From Thermosipho ferrireducens (GTDB lineage: Bacteria; Thermotogota; Thermotogae; Thermotogales; Fervidobacteriaceae): a stretch of DNA of 64,000 bases. Positions 8,310-63,244 of this stretch are shown piece after piece (within the stretch, counting starts at the first letter, position 1; each line of letters starts with the position of its first letter). Location of the stretch: contig NZ_CP071446.1 in the NCBI RefSeq assembly GCF_017358165.1, positions 1,860,001 through 1,924,000 of the forward strand, written 5' to 3'. Both the position numbers and the translations under genes were made by a program. The notes beneath the pieces are model-generated. The model searched no databases, was not told the origin of the DNA, and saw nothing but the letters and a program-made list of their open reading frames with translations.

Positions 8310-10001
8310 TTACTTTAATCCGTAGCGCTCTATTTTATAATACAAAGTTCTTATACTTATCCCAAGTTTTTCTGCTGTTTTTGTCCTATCACCATTGTTT
8401 TCTTTAAGCACTTTTTCTATAACTTTTCTTTCAAAATCTTCTACAAGAACTTTAAGTGGCCCTTCGATTTTATATGACTCTACACTCGTTTCTAAATGAA
8501 GAGGTGGTAAATGCCTTTTTTCTATAACATTTTCGTTCATATTCATATTTATTATTGCCCTTCCAATAATGTTTTCCAGCTCTCTCACATTTCCAGGCCA
8601 ATCATATGAAACTAAGTATCGTATAGCTGCTGGAGAAATACCATCTACTACACGTCCGTATTGTTGACCTATCTTTTTTACCATATACATTGCAAGTGCG
8701 GGGATATCTTTTTTTCTTTCTCTCAAAGAAGGTAGATGTATCGGGAATACATTTAATCTAAAATATAAATCTGGAAGAAATTCACCTTTTTTTACCATAC
8801 TTTCTAAATCCATATTAGTAGCTGCTATTATCCGCACATCAACTCTCTTTGGTTTGCTTCCACCTACAGGCATAAACTCTTTTCGTTCAATAAACCTTAA
8901 AATCTTAGCCTGAAGTTGAACTGGCATCTTTCCTATTTCATCAAGGAAAAGCGTGCCCCCATTTGCCTCCTCTATCAATCCTTTTTTACCGCCACGCTTT
9001 GCCCCGGTAAAAGCTCCCTCTTCATATCCAAAAAGTTCAGATTCCAGAATGCTTTCCGGTATAGCGGAGCAATTGACACTAACAAAGGGACCATTACGCC
9101 TAAAACTTGCATTGTGAATAGCATGTGCAAATAACTCCTTTCCAGTTCCACTTTCTCCCCTTAAAAGCACAGTAGCTGGGGTATTTGCGACTTTAAGCGC
9201 CTGCTCCTTGGCCATTACGAATTTCTCGCTATCGCCTATAATATCCTCAAATGTGTATTGGGCCTTCAAATGCCTCATCATTCTTCTTACTTCTTCAAGT
9301 TCTTTTGTAAGACTTATTATTTTTGAAACATCGTGTACTACAGCCACACTTCCACTAAATTTACCTTTCACAAAAAGAGGCGTCGCATTTACAACCACTT
9401 CTTTATGAGCCGGCCCAACTTTTAATCGCGCGCCGTAAATAGGCTTTTTTGTTTTTGAAATTAGGATATGTATACTTTCTCCTTCCGCTATATCTACAGT
9501 TGCCGGCTTTCCTATTACCTCTTCAGGTTTAAGGCCTGTTATTTCTGTATACGCTTTGTTAACAAGCACAACATTCCCATATTCATCGGCAACAGAAATC
9601 GCATCATAGGTAGAATCAATAATAGCTTTAAGTCGCGCTTCTATCTCGTGTAAATCAGTTATTTCTTCAGCCAGTTTTTTCACACTTGTAATATCACGAA
9701 AAACTGCAACCGCTCCTACAACATTTCCTTCTAAGTCTTTCAATGGCATTCTTGAGGTTATAATCACACTTTCTCCAGCGTGTTGTATTTTATCTATTTC
9801 TGGAATACCTGTTCGAACAACAATATGCAATCTGGTATTTGGAACCACTTCAGTCACAGGTTTCCCAACAATATCACTTGGTAAATTAAGAAGACGCGCT
9901 GCCATCTTATTAAAATATAGGACGCGCGCGTCTTCATCAACGATAATTACACCTTCTATGATGGATTCTAAAACTGTTCTAAAAAATTTTACAAGCTCCA
10001 A
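8310..10001 (-). CDS. PAS-domain sigma-54-dependent transcriptional activator
   Basis: About 563 residues. There are two PAS domains (about 5-110 and 125-235), then an AAA+ domain (about 250-480) with Walker A GESGTGKE and the GAFTGA loop that contacts sigma-54. A Fis-type helix-turn-helix ends the chain ([20 protein letters not shown]). The PAS input suggests sensing of a small ligand, redox state or another protein; there is no receiver domain. I favour the TTG at 10001, which has GAGGAG 9 bases upstream; a TTG at 10034 would overlap yjbQ. It implies a functional RpoN in this genome. Confidence 0.9.
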
Positions 10002-10023
10002 AATTATCAGCTCCTCGAACCTT

Positions 10024-10434
10024 TCATTCTCCAATAACTTTTACTACCACTCTTTTGCGTCTCTGGCCATCGTATTCTGCATAAAAAATCTGCTCCCATG
10101 GGCCTAAATCAAGTTTCCCATTGGTCACTGGCAAAACAACCTGATGATGAGTTAATATTCTTTTCAAATGGGCATCTCCATTATCTTCTCCTGTCCAGTG
10201 ATGCTTGTAGTCCCCAACAGGTGCCATTCTTTCAAGCCATTCCCAGATATCCTGATGTAATCCCGATTCATTATCATTTACAATTATCCCGGCTGTAATA
10301 TGCATGGCAGAGACCAGGCAAAACCCCTCTTTTATATTGCTTTTTTTCACAATTTTATCTATAACATCTGTGATCCTGATAAGCTCTTTTCTTTTCTTTG
10401 TATTAAACCACAGATACTCCGTATAACTTTTCAA
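10024..10434 (-). CDS. YjbQ/UPF0047 family protein
   Basis: About 136 residues of the secondary thiamine-phosphate-synthase-like YjbQ family. The conserved core is visible: [15 protein letters not shown], the [15 protein letters not shown] stretch with its clustered His residues, and PLGPWEQI-like [16 protein letters not shown] near the end. Some family members show weak thiamin-phosphate synthase activity, and the physiological role is unsettled. The TTG at 10434 is chosen because AAAGGAGG lies just upstream; an ATG at 10452 sits before that site. The ATP-grasp gene's 3' end overlaps this upstream region, and the sigma-54 activator follows. Confidence 0.88.
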
Positions 10435-10448
10435 AGCAATACCTCCTT

Positions 10449-11378
10449 TCATTTGTTGCGTTTAAATGATACTTCTAATATCTTTAAAATTAATTCATCA
10501 TAAGAATATCCTGCTGCTTCCGCCATTTTTGTTATATCAGAATACACCGGAACAAGCTGGGGTAAAGAATTAATTTCAAGGAAATATATCTCATCATCTC
10601 TTATTCTAACATCCATTCTGGCATAATCCTTTAAAGACAGCACTTTAAAAACCTTTCTTGCATAATCTTTTAACTTTTCCTCTACATTTTTATCTATCCT
10701 TGCTGGACACACATAATTTGTTTGTTCCCCATAATAATGTTTTACCTCATAAGAATAAAATCTTTCTAAATTTTCGGGTAAAGTAGAAAAATCTATTTCA
10801 AGAATCGGCAAAACTTCAAGATTTTTATTATTACCTATCAACCCAACACTGACTTCTATCCCATCAATGAACTCTTCAACAAGCGCAGGTTGCTTAAATT
10901 CTCGATGAACTTTCTCTACCTGTTTTCTCAAATCTTCTATATTATCAACCACAGAATCTCTTGTTATTCCCTTGGCACTTCCTTCTCTTGAGGGTTTGAC
11001 AATAGACACTTTTTTTATATCTATTGGAGTATCTCCGATATTATAAACTTCAAAATCAGGTGTGGGAATTCCATAATGCCTTAAAATAATTTTTGTTGTA
11101 ATTTTATCCAGACAGACAGCGTGCGAATAAGCATTAGAACCTGTGTATGGTATTCCAAGTTTATCAAGAACAGCGGGAACGTGCATCTGTTTTGTTTCCT
11201 TTCCACCCTTATTGGATAGATTAAATACATAATCAAAATTCTTAATTTTTTTAACAAAATCATCATCAAACGCTATTTTTACACAATCATATTTCTTGGA
11301 GATGGCTGAATAAACGCTATCAACCATTAATCTTTCTTCATCGCTTATGTCACAGTCATGCACTACAGCAATTCTCAT
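10449..11378 (-). CDS. D-alanine-D-alanine ligase-like ATP-grasp enzyme
   Basis: 309 residues with the ATP-grasp layout of Ddl: an N-terminal Rossmann-like part (1-90), the [17 protein letters not shown] segment and the substrate/ATP segments [12 protein letters not shown] and [14 protein letters not shown]. At the C-terminus are the metal-binding ARMDVRI and [10 protein letters not shown], then [10 protein letters not shown]. The NxxP motif reads NSLPQL where Ddl usually has NTxPG, so another carboxylate-amine ligase specificity is possible. It appears to be the first gene of the operon running to galT, and an extended -10 promoter lies about 80 bases upstream. Confidence 0.72.
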
Positions 11379-11470: not shown

Positions 11471-11518
11471 TACACAAAACAGTTTTTTTGTTAAAACGTG
11501 AGGACTCCAACTCACCTT

Positions 11519-11810
11519 TGTCATTCCGAACCCGAAGGGTTAGGAATCTTATTATTAGCAAGGTTGGCGAGTGTTAGCGAGGCCTGTCCTGAGGAGTAAA
11601 ACGACGAAGGATCTTGCGAGAGTTAGTAAAAAGAATAAGATCCCTCGCATACGCTCGGGATGACAGAAAAAGAGACTTTCATTTCAAAGAACAAGAAAGC
11701 AAGGAATTCCCCCATCTGTGTCATTCCGAGGGGCAAGAAAGGGTAGAAATCCCCCACCAGTGTCATTCCAAGGAGCGGGCAGGCGAGGAATCTTATAACT
11801 GGCAAGGTTA
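11519..11810. repeat. Cluster of dispersed TGTCATTCC-type repeats (copy A)
   Basis: The roughly 300 bases hold at least three forward units starting TGTCATTCC (near 11519, 11718 and 11760) that end in GGAATCTTAT-like or GAAATCCC sequence. An inverted unit ends in GGGATGACAG (about 11640-11665). The forward units are followed by GGTTGGCGAG-type spacers. The same modules recur at 47880-48090 and 52835-52871. No transposase is present. The block is unlike the surrounding coding DNA (locally richer in G+C), and short open frames in it are not genes. Confidence 0.8.
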
Positions 11811-11820
11811 GTTTATTTTT

Positions 11821-13452
11821 TCAACCTCTCTTAATTAACTTTAATCTCTCATTTTCTTTTAAAATCTTTCCGTTCTCATCCACAGCAAAAGACGCGCCAT
11901 TTATTATTCTTGTTTCAAATCTTCCCCTTGCCACAGAAAGTCCTTTTAATCCAGGAGCATCTAATATTCCAGACTTAATTGCATTATAAATCACTACAGG
12001 TTCTATTAACGGATCTTTATATTCTTTCCCTGAGTCTTTTATAGCTTCTATAATCAACATAGCTTCTTCTTTTAAGACTTCAATTCTTTCACGTAAATCT
12101 TTATCAAAACTTATATCAGGTAACCCTGCCATAGTATTTTTTATTACCTGTTTAACCATTTTCACGCTTTCTATAATTTCTTTACTCGTAGCCCTTTTTA
12201 TAGCTTCTGAATAAGACACAACATGAATTATGTGAGGTTTGAGCCACATTCCATAAAACATAGTGCTGGTAAGTTGCCCCATTGCTCTAAATTCTTCTGC
12301 GGGAAATGAAAGTAAGCCGGTGCGTATCATAGTAAAGGAAATAAAGTTTTCATCGTGTAATGATTCTATCAACTGTTTTTTTGCGATTTGCTTGGCTAAA
12401 TCGTACTTTGGCGATAGACCCGGAGGTGTTGAGAGCATGTATTGAGCAACATAATGCTTTACCCCAAGTTTCTTCGCATTATATGCTGCCAGATATGCCA
12501 CAGCTACTTCCATGGCATCGTGGGCATAACGTAAAGACCACTGATGCGCCTCGTTTACTTCAACAGGTACTCCATTGGCAGCGTTCCATTTTATAGCTTC
12601 CTGGTTTTCTTTTATAGCTTCTAAAAGCTCTCTATCAGAGCGCCTATCAAGTTCTGAATACCAGGTTAGGGGTACAGCGGCCCAGGCATTATTAATTGTT
12701 TCTTTCAAAAGTCTGGAAAATTCCAGTAAATTCTTTGTTCCAGAATAACATCTCATAAGAGGAAAATTTCCTCTTCTTGTAGCCTGGTACATTCTTTCAA
12801 AATCTTCTCTTGTTCTTAAAGGAACACCACCGGCCCCATCTTGCTTCTTATCCATTTTATCTGGTTCAAAAAAATACTGCTGACAGTTTTGATCTGGAGC
12901 AAGCGATATTATATCTAACAATCTGGATTCTGCTAATATTTTTATATGCTTTTCCGTTTCTTCAATTGTTGACAAACCTATATGATGCCTTATCAATGGA
13001 TATGGACTTTTATACTTTATTCTTTCAACCAGAGTTTGAGGAAGGATTTCATTGGCTTTATTTTTCCCCTTAACAACATTTCTAAGCCACATAACAACTT
13101 CATCAAACTCTTCTCTTCCATCAAAAACTTTGCTTATAAAAGAAAATTTCCTGGCAATATTTCCTGTTTCTACTGTTCCACCAAATACGTAAATTTTATT
13201 AAGAAGTTTCTGAGCTTTCAATTTCTTTTCAAGATCAGCAAGTAATTGATATAACGCTTCTGGATCAAGTCTATAACTAATCGCTACAATATCTGGATCA
13301 AATTCTATTACAGCACCTACAAATTTATCCAGCTCGACAGCCCCACCAAGATATTCTGTTTTATATCCCTCATTTTCTGCCATTTTTAAAAAATTCAAAA
13401 GGCCTGCTATATGAACGCAACTACCTATTGCAGCTCCAAGAATTTTTTTCAA
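11821..13452 (-). CDS. Fused B12-binding / glutamate-mutase-like protein
   Basis: 543 residues. Residues 1-130 resemble the small subunit (MutS) of glutamate mutase: a Rossmann-like B12 domain with GSCVHIAG at 10-17, SYRL near 60 and FGGTVETGN near 93. The canonical base-off motif DxHxxG reads CxHxxG, so the axial His (14) and Gly (17) remain but Asp is Cys. Residues about 150-540 resemble the catalytic TIM barrel (MutE), with VNEAHQWSLRYAHDA near 290 and a conserved AQYMLSTPPG. In known glutamate mutases these are separate chains. The TTG start overlaps the stop of the opine-dehydrogenase gene by 4 bases. It is probably an adenosylcobalamin-dependent carbon-skeleton or amino mutase of unknown substrate. 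Confidence 0.72.
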   Translation of the reverse strand: MKKILGAAIGSCVHIAGLLNFLKMAENEGYKTEYLGGAVELDKFVGAVIEFDPDIVAISYRLDPEALYQLLADLEKKLKAQKLLNKIYVFGGTVETGNIARKFSFISKVFDGREEFDEVVMWLRNVVKGKNKANEILPQTLVERIKYKSPYPLIRHHIGLSTIEETEKHIKILAESRLLDIISLAPDQNCQQYFFEPDKMDKKQDGAGGVPLRTREDFERMYQATRRGNFPLMRCYSGTKNLLEFSRLLKETINNAWAAVPLTWYSELDRRSDRELLEAIKENQEAIKWNAANGVPVEVNEAHQWSLRYAHDAMEVAVAYLAAYNAKKLGVKHYVAQYMLSTPPGLSPKYDLAKQIAKKQLIESLHDENFISFTMIRTGLLSFPAEEFRAMGQLTSTMFYGMWLKPHIIHVVSYSEAIKRATSKEIIESVKMVKQVIKNTMAGLPDISFDKDLRERIEVLKEEAMLIIEAIKDSGKEYKDPLIEPVVIYNAIKSGILDAPGLKGLSVARGRFETRIINGASFAVDENGKILKENERLKLIKRG

Positions 13453-14534
13453 TTTAAATCACCCTCTTTGAGAAGTCTATTTATCTGAGAAAGGGTGAGA
13501 TTTGCTATTCCTAATTTTTCAAGGGTTCTTCCCTCTCTGTAAAAGTCGCGATTCATCATAATCGAAGCAATATATATTATTGAATCTATGGCAGGAGTAG
13601 CTATTCCTAATTTTTTTGCCATAGAAGAAATGGGAACAAGACTCATAGGAACATCCTCAAATATATATCTATTTTGCAAACTTGGTGGTGCAATAATCCC
13701 CTGATAACCACTATTATTATGAATTGCTTCATATAAATTCATACCAAGAACATCGTAGGCATAATTCAACCACTCCACAGATGTCATTGGTTCAAGCCCC
13801 AGAGTTCTTGCAACAGCACATCTTTCAGAGTCTATTTTTTCAAGTACTTTCGCAATTGATGGTGTTATACCCTCAAGATAAAACTCAAACTTTCCAAATG
13901 TGCTTTCCACTCTTCCAGCATTCAATATCAATGTAGCAGGATGGAATACTGCTCCAATATTGTTAAAGCTTGTGTATAACGTAGACTCAACCACCTGCAT
14001 TTCAGGTATTACTTCCTCTACAACGTCTTTTAATTCATTGTTTTTTCTCGCAGGAAGCGCCGAAACAGGAACGGCATTCTTTATTTTGAATATATGGGAT
14101 ACACCGGGATTTGATGTACGAGAAGCAAATAAAAAAGTTTGTGCTTCAGCAACAATTATTTCTTTCTTCATTCCCTCTCTTTTTAAAACCTCCCAGAATT
14201 CCAGTGCGCCAAAAGTTCTTCCAGGATTTAAAATAAAAATCTGCCCATTTTTAACATAAGGTGCCACTTTTTTTGCTATATCAGCATGAGCAAAAGCAGG
14301 AACAACTATCATTATCAATTTAGCATTTTCCAGCGCTTTTTCTAAATCAGTAGTGACCTCATCAATAGTCACCGTAGCGTTAATCTGCCCCTCAAGTTTT
14401 ATTTGCCGTGAAGTTTTAAAAGCAGAAATTCTTCGAAGTGATCTATTATACAAAGTTATGTTATACCCTCTCATCCCCAGAAATCCAGCAAGTGCTAATC
14501 CACCGTTGCCGGCTCCAATAACACATATGTTCAT
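13449..14534 (-). CDS. NAD/NADP octopine/nopaline dehydrogenase family protein
   Basis: 361 residues. An N-terminal Rossmann domain has GAGNGGLALAGFL (residues 7-19). The C-terminal octopine-dehydrogenase domain has the NNIGAVFHPATLILNAG signature near residues 185-201, containing the His thought to be catalytic in opine dehydrogenases. Enzymes of this family reductively couple an amino acid and a 2-oxo acid, or run in reverse. GGGGGTGATTGG precedes the ATG. It lies 23 bases after a 2-hydroxyacid dehydrogenase gene and overlaps the B12 protein gene, which suggests one amino acid/2-oxo acid pathway. The substrate is not deducible. Confidence 0.85.
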   Translation of the reverse strand: MNICVIGAGNGGLALAGFLGMRGYNITLYNRSLRRISAFKTSRQIKLEGQINATVTIDEVTTDLEKALENAKLIMIVVPAFAHADIAKKVAPYVKNGQIFILNPGRTFGALEFWEVLKREGMKKEIIVAEAQTFLFASRTSNPGVSHIFKIKNAVPVSALPARKNNELKDVVEEVIPEMQVVESTLYTSFNNIGAVFHPATLILNAGRVESTFGKFEFYLEGITPSIAKVLEKIDSERCAVARTLGLEPMTSVEWLNYAYDVLGMNLYEAIHNNSGYQGIIAPPSLQNRYIFEDVPMSLVPISSMAKKLGIATPAIDSIIYIASIMMNRDFYREGRTLEKLGIANLTLSQINRLLKEGDLN

Positions 14535-14557
14535 CCAATCACCCCCTTTAAATAGTG

Positions 14558-15532
14558 TCAGTACATTTGCTCTGGATCAACTATATTTTTAGGTTTACCT
14601 TTCATAATAAAGTGCTCTATATTCTCAATCAACTCGTCTATTCGCCCTTCCTGTCCCTCTATAGTATATCCCCCAACGTGAGGAGAAATCACCACGTTTT
14701 TAAACTTGTGAATTGGATAATTGAACGGTAACACCACACTTTTTTCTTTTCCAGGGTAATTGTACCAAACATCACTTGCGTATCCCGCAAGGATTTTATT
14801 TTCAAGAGCTTTATACAAAGCTTTTTCTTCAATCAATTCTCCTCTACCTACATTTATCAAAAACTTATTTTTCATAAGCAATAAAACTTTCTTATTAATA
14901 ATATGATAAGTCTCCTTTGTAAGAGGCAATGTCACAAAAACCACATGGGCATCTTTTATTGCGCTTTCAATGGAAGTCGTTATCAGATCAAAGTCTTTTA
15001 TTTCTTTAAAAACTCTTTTGAAGCCTATTATCTTACAACCAAACCCCCGTAAAAGTTTTGCAAGATGCCTCCCGATAGTACCAGTACCAAGAATCGCAAC
15101 ATTTTTATTTTGAAGAGAAAACCATAAGTCTTCTTTTTTAAAACCAACTGCAAAACCATGCCATATTCCTTTTAAAAGATCATTGTGATATTCCACTACC
15201 CGTGCAGTCAACGTCAGAGCAAGCGCAAGAGCTCTCTCAGCAACTATTTTCCCATTGCCATGTGAATTCGCAACAAAAACTCCTTTTTTCTTAATCACAT
15301 CCCAGGGGAGCATGTCAGCCCCTGCCCATGGTACGAATATCGCTTTTAAGTTTTTGGCTATCTCTATTTGCTCCGGTGCCACATATCCTGCCACAATAGC
15401 ATCAATTTCAGGCAGTACTGTGTTAACTTCCTTTCCTGGTACTACTATCCAGCTTATATTATATTTCTTTCCCAGGTCTTCCATTTTGCTTTTCAAGTAA
15501 TCATTAATTTTTGTAAGAACTAATATTTTCAT
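14558..15532 (-). CDS. D-2-hydroxyacid dehydrogenase, NAD-binding
   Basis: 324 residues, typical of the D-isomer-specific family. The dinucleotide fold is GTGTIGRHLAKLL near residues 150-162. The catalytic Arg lies in NVGRGELI, and the catalytic His in SPHVGGYT near residue 293. The N-terminal substrate domain is less conserved. It would interconvert a 2-hydroxy and a 2-oxo acid. It is the first gene of a three-gene operon, with GAGGGAGAC before the ATG. A 2-oxo acid produced here could feed the opine-type dehydrogenase next to it; this is inference from context. Confidence 0.9.
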   Translation of the reverse strand: MKILVLTKINDYLKSKMEDLGKKYNISWIVVPGKEVNTVLPEIDAIVAGYVAPEQIEIAKNLKAIFVPWAGADMLPWDVIKKKGVFVANSHGNGKIVAERALALALTLTARVVEYHNDLLKGIWHGFAVGFKKEDLWFSLQNKNVAILGTGTIGRHLAKLLRGFGCKIIGFKRVFKEIKDFDLITTSIESAIKDAHVVFVTLPLTKETYHIINKKVLLLMKNKFLINVGRGELIEEKALYKALENKILAGYASDVWYNYPGKEKSVVLPFNYPIHKFKNVVISPHVGGYTIEGQEGRIDELIENIEHFIMKGKPKNIVDPEQMY

Positions 15533-63075: not shown

Positions 63076-63107
63076 AAAAAAATCTCCTGCGCGAAGCAGG
63101 AGATTTT
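63076..63107 (-). terminator. Leader terminator of the TPP riboswitch
   Basis: Minus-strand hairpin AAAATCTCCTGC / GCAGGAGATTTT with a 5-base loop, followed by a T run. It lies between the TPP aptamer and the thiS ribosome site, so it is the likely expression platform: termination when TPP is bound. Confidence 0.92.
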
Positions 63108-63111
63108 CTAT

Positions 63112-63216
63112 CTTCTGCTCCGCTCCTTTCGCTGGTATTACCCAGGTCAAGTTCAAAGGGTCAGGGGATTCCTCCCCACTCTCAGCTGCGGTATCAGCAG
63201 CTCCCCTGCGGAGAAG
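63112..63216 (-). promoter_or_regulatory. TPP riboswitch (THI element)
   Basis: The minus strand carries the THI-box signature in order: AGGGGAGC, GCTGAGA, GACCCTTTGAAC, CTGGGTAATACCAGCGAA. They are enclosed by a P1 stem (CTTCTCCGC with GCGGAG/AGAAG). It is followed by a terminator and the thiS start, and controls the whole thi operon by TPP-dependent attenuation. Confidence 0.97.
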
Positions 63217-63244
63217 TGTATTTACTTTTACTATGTACAACAAA

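Follow-up and report, generated by a model that had tools for sequence, protein, structure and literature searches.

What could an opine-type dehydrogenase and a B12 protein make together, and which of the genes around them belong to the same task? The question is raised by a locus of Thermosipho ferrireducens (contig NZ_CP071446.1, positions 1,860,001 to 1,924,000; this whole stretch of 64,000 nt, with a GC content of 33% and taken from a complete genome of 1.98 Mb, is referred to here as the window), where an earlier note had grouped a 2-hydroxyacid dehydrogenase (HDH), an opine-type dehydrogenase (OPI) and a mutase-like B12 protein (MUT) into a trio. The conserved core of the locus is the pair formed by OPI and MUT, not this trio, and the usual third member in the Thermotogota is an ATP-grasp protein (DDL). 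In the reading that we favour, to which we give a probability of about 50%, MUT would be an adenosylcobalamin mutase that makes, together with OPI, an unusual amino acid, which would then be joined by an ATP-dependent ligase. The features concerned are the following:

14558-15532, minus strand: HDH, 2-hydroxyacid dehydrogenase, 324 aa (Pfam D-isomer 2-hydroxyacid dehydrogenase, E 4e-43)
13449-14534, minus strand: OPI, opine-type dehydrogenase, 361 aa (Pfam Octopine_DH, pfam02317, E 4e-47)
11821-13452, minus strand: MUT, fused B12 protein, 543 aa (Pfam B12-binding, E 1e-8; weak Met_asp_mut_E, E 1e-6)
13402-13425, minus strand: B12-binding motif GSCVHIAG, MUT residues 10-17 (CxHxxG replacing DxHxxG; His14 is the predicted cobalt ligand)
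11490-11820, no strand: multi-copy GTCATTCCGA-type repeat between MUT and DDL (98 matching pieces in the genome)
10449-11378, minus strand: DDL, D-Ala-D-Ala-ligase-like ATP-grasp protein, 309 aa (Pfam Dala_Dala_lig_C, E 8e-34)

HDH, OPI and MUT lie where the earlier note had placed them, with a 23-base gap between HDH and OPI and a 4-base overlap (TTGA) between OPI and MUT; coordinates and spacing were all correct.

Linkage and co-inheritance of the pair

One genome per species was scanned for MUT, which gave 273 encoded relatives, and the best 80 loci were examined. OPI was detected in 76 of these 80 loci, either adjacent to MUT or one gene apart. The other four comprise two contig-end truncations (L077 and L097), one locus with MUT itself at the contig end (L071) and one in which the gene of the reactivase GlmL overlaps MUT (L109). 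Carriers of the pair among the 80 loci belong to the Thermotogota, Bacillota, Bacteroidota, Actinomycetota, Atribacterota, Stahlbacteria and Heimdall/Hodarchaeota (Asgard archaea), that is, to at least seven phylum-level groups.

Within the Thermotogota, where OPI was counted at full strength (>300 bits), both OPI and MUT (or its relative MUT2, described below) are encoded in 65 of the 103 genomes and neither in the other 38, a concordance of 103/103 (Fisher value 4e-29, computed ignoring relatedness). The two genes are close together on the same contig in 64 of the 65 carriers, and the joint absences are scattered inside genera (e.g. g3, g5, g10 and g14). The closest solved relative of OPI is N-(1-D-carboxyethyl)-L-norvaline dehydrogenase (CENDH, 1bg6; phmmer E 5e-81), and the catalytic residues His198 and Asp294 are kept in all 76 MUT-linked homologues. 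In a Kosmotogaceae-like genome (L182; G073 C1:171000-190500), the OPI-MUT pair is present twice at a distance of about 10 kb, and a divergent asparagine-synthetase-like gene lies upstream of each copy.

Fold and motif of the B12 protein

The Pfam B12-binding domain of MUT covers residues 3-94 and scores above its curated cut-off. When the AlphaFold2 model of the protein (mean pLDDT 82.7) was compared with the PDB using Foldseek, subunit E of glutamate mutase came first (1cb7_B, E 9e-16; TM 0.67 by target length), followed by ornithine and then lysine aminomutases. As modelled, MUT thus joins a B12-binding domain at its N-terminus to a TIM barrel of the glutamate mutase type, which supports its earlier description as a B12 mutase-like fusion. 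In profile comparisons, MutE and OraE/KamD stand at about the same distance from the barrel.

Across 82 MUT homologues, His14 and Gly17 of the motif are invariant, as are Arg155, Arg234 and Arg377, and dozens of polar, charged or aromatic positions in the barrel are nearly so; no near-invariant Lys of the pyridoxal phosphate (PLP) type was found in their B12 domains. The three arginines might bind carboxylates, by analogy with the three-arginine claw of glutamate mutase (R66, R100 and R149; PMC10947579), with the alignment too weak for a mapped site. In two loci (L038 and L176), another B12 protein, MUT2, which is 29% identical to the MUT of the window, replaces it beside OPI and DDL, and the MUT2 copy of L038 carries the canonical DxHxxG motif. 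Both this replacement and the overlap of GlmL with MUT in L109 were counted in favour of the pathway proposed below. Searches of plasmids for named, annotated homologues returned none.

Regarding the cofactor, de novo synthesis of B12 is reported for the genus Thermosipho (PMC3403396). This and the presence of OraE, KamD and KamE in the window genome were likewise counted in favour of the proposed pathway. A stand-alone GlmL/MutL gene (G000 C1:225000-240000, L138) is present in nearly all Fervidobacteriaceae examined, with or without MUT, but the MUT-carrying f2 and f3 genomes lack it. The presence of GlmL was therefore rejected as a marker of MUT dependence, since it tracks the family Fervidobacteriaceae and not MUT. 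As a separate observation, Halothermothrix sp. DTU029 (L072:7989-10244) has a MUT homologue continued by a C-terminal CRP-type regulator (cyclic-nucleotide-binding and helix-turn-helix domains) in one open reading frame, which may reflect a genuine fusion or else the assembly or a frameshift.

Amide-forming partners and the proposed pathway

DDL, the next linked gene, was left out of the earlier note, because repeat DNA displaces it by 442 bp from MUT in the window. In the relatives the two genes overlap or abut (by a 4-bp overlap in most of the closest ones), and the GTCATTCCGA-type repeat was placed by aligning their junction in the window with that of three relatives. Since this repeat lies in the space between MUT and DDL, the OPI-MUT-DDL operon has probably been split by repeat DNA in the lineage of the window, as a lineage-specific insertion. 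Of the 80 loci, 19 have DDL next to the pair, in the order OPI-MUT-DDL in the Thermotogales, DDL-OPI-MUT in the Mesoaciditogaceae, Atribacterota and Fermentithermobacillaceae, and OPI-DDL-MUT2 in a relative (L038). DDL is not the housekeeping ligase, because it stays under the cut-off of the D-Ala-D-Ala ligase family (TIGR01205; 153.4 against 245.65 bits) and a separate, better-scoring Ddl is encoded at 431 kb in the same genome.

Other lineages have other partners of this kind. A different ATP-grasp protein, similar to PRK12767/PF15632, lies between or beside OPI and MUT within surface-polysaccharide gene clusters of Clostridiaceae 14S0207, of Hathewaya (in the order OPI-ATP-grasp-MUT in Hathewaya massiliensis) and of one Bacteroidales genome; L049:2409-14780, L052 and L113 are loci with OPI, the PRK12767-like protein and MUT in such clusters. 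The Clostridial protein, when searched by sequence against the PDB, gave no useful match. In the Kosmotogaceae, OPI has an asparagine-synthetase-like protein as its neighbour, which occurs in either orientation. The recurrence of unrelated, ATP-dependent amide-forming partners favours a biosynthesis ending in an amide, and does not support the conversion of amino acids through oxo acids that the earlier note had proposed. Many loci have no such partner, and the product of OPI and MUT must therefore also be useful alone.

Two further elements of the window may be recorded here. In Thermosipho-like genomes, the gene of a sigma-54 activator (8310-10034 in the window), which is closest to PrdR (479 bits, under the cut-off of 795), stands in one gene string with DDL and YjbQ, and a thiamine pyrophosphate riboswitch aptamer lies at 63107-63217 on the minus strand (77.7 bits). 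Neighbours from histidine biosynthesis, V-ATPase, DnaE and WecC were set aside as pathway clues, each being limited to one or two lineages.

From these observations we infer the enzymatic activity, the order of steps and the biosynthetic direction of the favoured pathway. MUT would be an adenosylcobalamin-dependent radical mutase of the glutamate mutase or ornithine aminomutase kind, with its B12 domain placed ahead of the barrel, and OPI an NAD(P)-dependent opine-type dehydrogenase forming or cleaving a C-N bond on the metabolite of MUT. Their product would be an unusual amino acid with a rearranged skeleton or a shifted amine, probably bearing more than one carboxylate, which in the organism of the window may then be coupled by DDL, as an amide, to a partner. 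Several findings weigh against this pathway. MUT scores far under every mutase equivalog cut-off (19.9 against 390 bits for the glutamate mutase model TIGR01503); the barrel aligns only marginally by profile with MutE, OraE and KamD (E 0.005-0.12), which makes residue mapping unsafe; position 12 of the motif is Cys in 63 of 82 homologues, the one from the window included, and Asp in the other 19, with nothing else found; Pseudothermotoga-like genomes carry MUT without GlmL; and the majority of the loci outside the Thermotogota lack an adjacent ligase, so that amide formation cannot be universal.

The alternative that survives best, improbable in our judgement, is that the pair is catabolic, with the mutase rearranging an amino acid and the dehydrogenase oxidising what results, in the manner of the fermentation of ornithine or lysine. 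Such a role would suit a fold family that is fermentative (OraE, KamD, MutE), carriers that we take to be mostly anaerobic lineages, and the 2-hydroxyacid dehydrogenase found near the pair in Thermosipho-like genomes. However, genes for a thiolase, CoA transferase, deaminase or transporter do not recur beside the pair, the neighbours that do recur consume ATP to form amides, and the ornithine and lysine aminomutases (OraE, KamD and KamE) are encoded at other sites of the window genome.

Somewhat more doubtful still is a MUT that is not a mutase, being instead a corrinoid methyltransferase or a B12 sensor that controls or assists OPI. By sequence, its B12 domain scores highest against methyltransferase-type corrinoid proteins, and both the regulator joined to it in L072 and the replacement of the motif Asp by Cys in most members would fit. 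Nevertheless, mutases are the first matches of the full-length model, the many near-invariant barrel positions resemble an enzyme active site, and a reactivase gene overlaps MUT in L109.

The third alternative, a single oxo-acid pathway of HDH, OPI and MUT, is very unlikely: the three genes are contiguous and tightly spaced, and their arrangement is kept in seven Thermosipho-like genomes, but HDH stands beside the pair nowhere else in the survey, and in the relatives it is flanked by a glycerate 2-kinase, a natural partner of a hydroxypyruvate/glycerate reductase. Checking the neighbourhood of the trio thus upheld the earlier note within these genomes and not beyond them, as only the OPI-MUT link is conserved and HDH is tied to it solely in the window genome and its seven relatives (L021-L027). 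The full order in the latter is NadE - glycerate 2-kinase - HDH - OPI - MUT - DDL - YjbQ - sigma-54 regulator, with HDH between OPI and the kinase gene, and elsewhere across most of the Thermotogales the block is OPI-MUT-DDL. The kinase is a DUF4147/MOFRL protein, whose best NCBIfam match, 'glycerate 2-kinase', is under cut-off; the window genome encodes a kinase 57% identical to it at another site. Given this neighbour, reduction of hydroxypyruvate or glycerate is the likelier function of HDH, and the gene is adjacent to the pair and probably co-transcribed with it while lying outside the conserved module.

Comparison with known systems

A novel B12-dependent family was predicted by Zhang et al. 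in 2009 (BMC Genomics 10:78, PMC2667541) from 11 genomes of four phyla, the Thermotogae among the carriers, with no function assigned. As described there, it has an N-terminal B12-binding-like domain, is always beside a pfam02317 octopine/nopaline dehydrogenase and, in several organisms, has a D-Ala:D-Ala ligase and an asparagine synthase nearby; a TIM-barrel-like structure was put at its N-terminus (PMC2667541). The proteins of the window fit this family by description and gene context, at every context point compared, sharing with it the position of the B12 domain and the pfam02317 neighbour (76/80 loci). They differ in the barrel, which is C-terminal and of the mutase type, in the CxHxxG motif and in the spread over at least seven phylum-level groups. 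Hence, both the family and its neighbourhood are already published, as a prediction only, and what we infer here is the pathway chemistry; no follow-up was found in the open-access literature (most subscription journals being outside this scope), and, as the earlier note had said of the trio, no pathway is known to have been described for the pair. Beyond the 2009 description, the present analysis adds a wider phyletic range, the strict co-inheritance of the two genes, a barrel of the mutase type, the CxHxxG motif, the replacement of MUT by MUT2 and a second type of ATP-grasp partner, and it takes HDH out of the module.

Few reactions of adenosylcobalamin mutases are known. A pair so strictly co-inherited, found in bacteria as well as in Asgard archaea and apparently not characterized since the prediction of 2009, should add another to them, and the amino acid formed is probably new as well; the recurring amide-forming partners offer a direct handle for finding it. 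In addition, Cys in place of Asp next to the cobalt ligand sets these proteins apart from the textbook motif in a way that can be tested.

Among characterized enzymes, glutamate mutase (MutS and MutE) likewise combines a Rossmann B12 domain, with its His ligand, and a TIM barrel, whereas MUT is a single fused chain with the B12 domain first, and Clostridiaceae carriers encode a true MutE besides MUT. D-ornithine 4,5-aminomutase (OraE) and lysine 5,6-aminomutase (KamD/KamE), the next-best fold matches, also have a barrel and a B12 domain, but the domain order of OraE is different and MUT is without the conserved PLP-type Lys. OPI aligns with CENDH over nearly its full length and keeps the catalytic His and Asp; unlike CENDH, it is accompanied by the putative B12 mutase in every surveyed Thermotogota genome that encodes it.

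In pyrrolysine biosynthesis, a radical mutase (PylB), an ATP-grasp ligase (PylC) and a Rossmann dehydrogenase (PylD) together produce an unusual amide-containing amino acid. The Pyl mutase depends on radical SAM chemistry, in contrast to the B12 type of MUT, and most OPI-MUT loci have no ligase; what MUT, OPI and DDL have in common with the Pyl proteins is the logic of mutase, ligase and dehydrogenase, as an analogy that makes no claim of homology. Pursuing this likeness, we tentatively suggest a widespread OPI-MUT pathway with an optional ATP-dependent ligase, whose adenosylcobalamin mutase, of a new class with fused domains and a Cys-x-His corrinoid motif, might rearrange an amino acid or an opine into an undescribed amino acid, either free or amide-linked into surface polymers, as a possible B12 counterpart of the pyrrolysine route.

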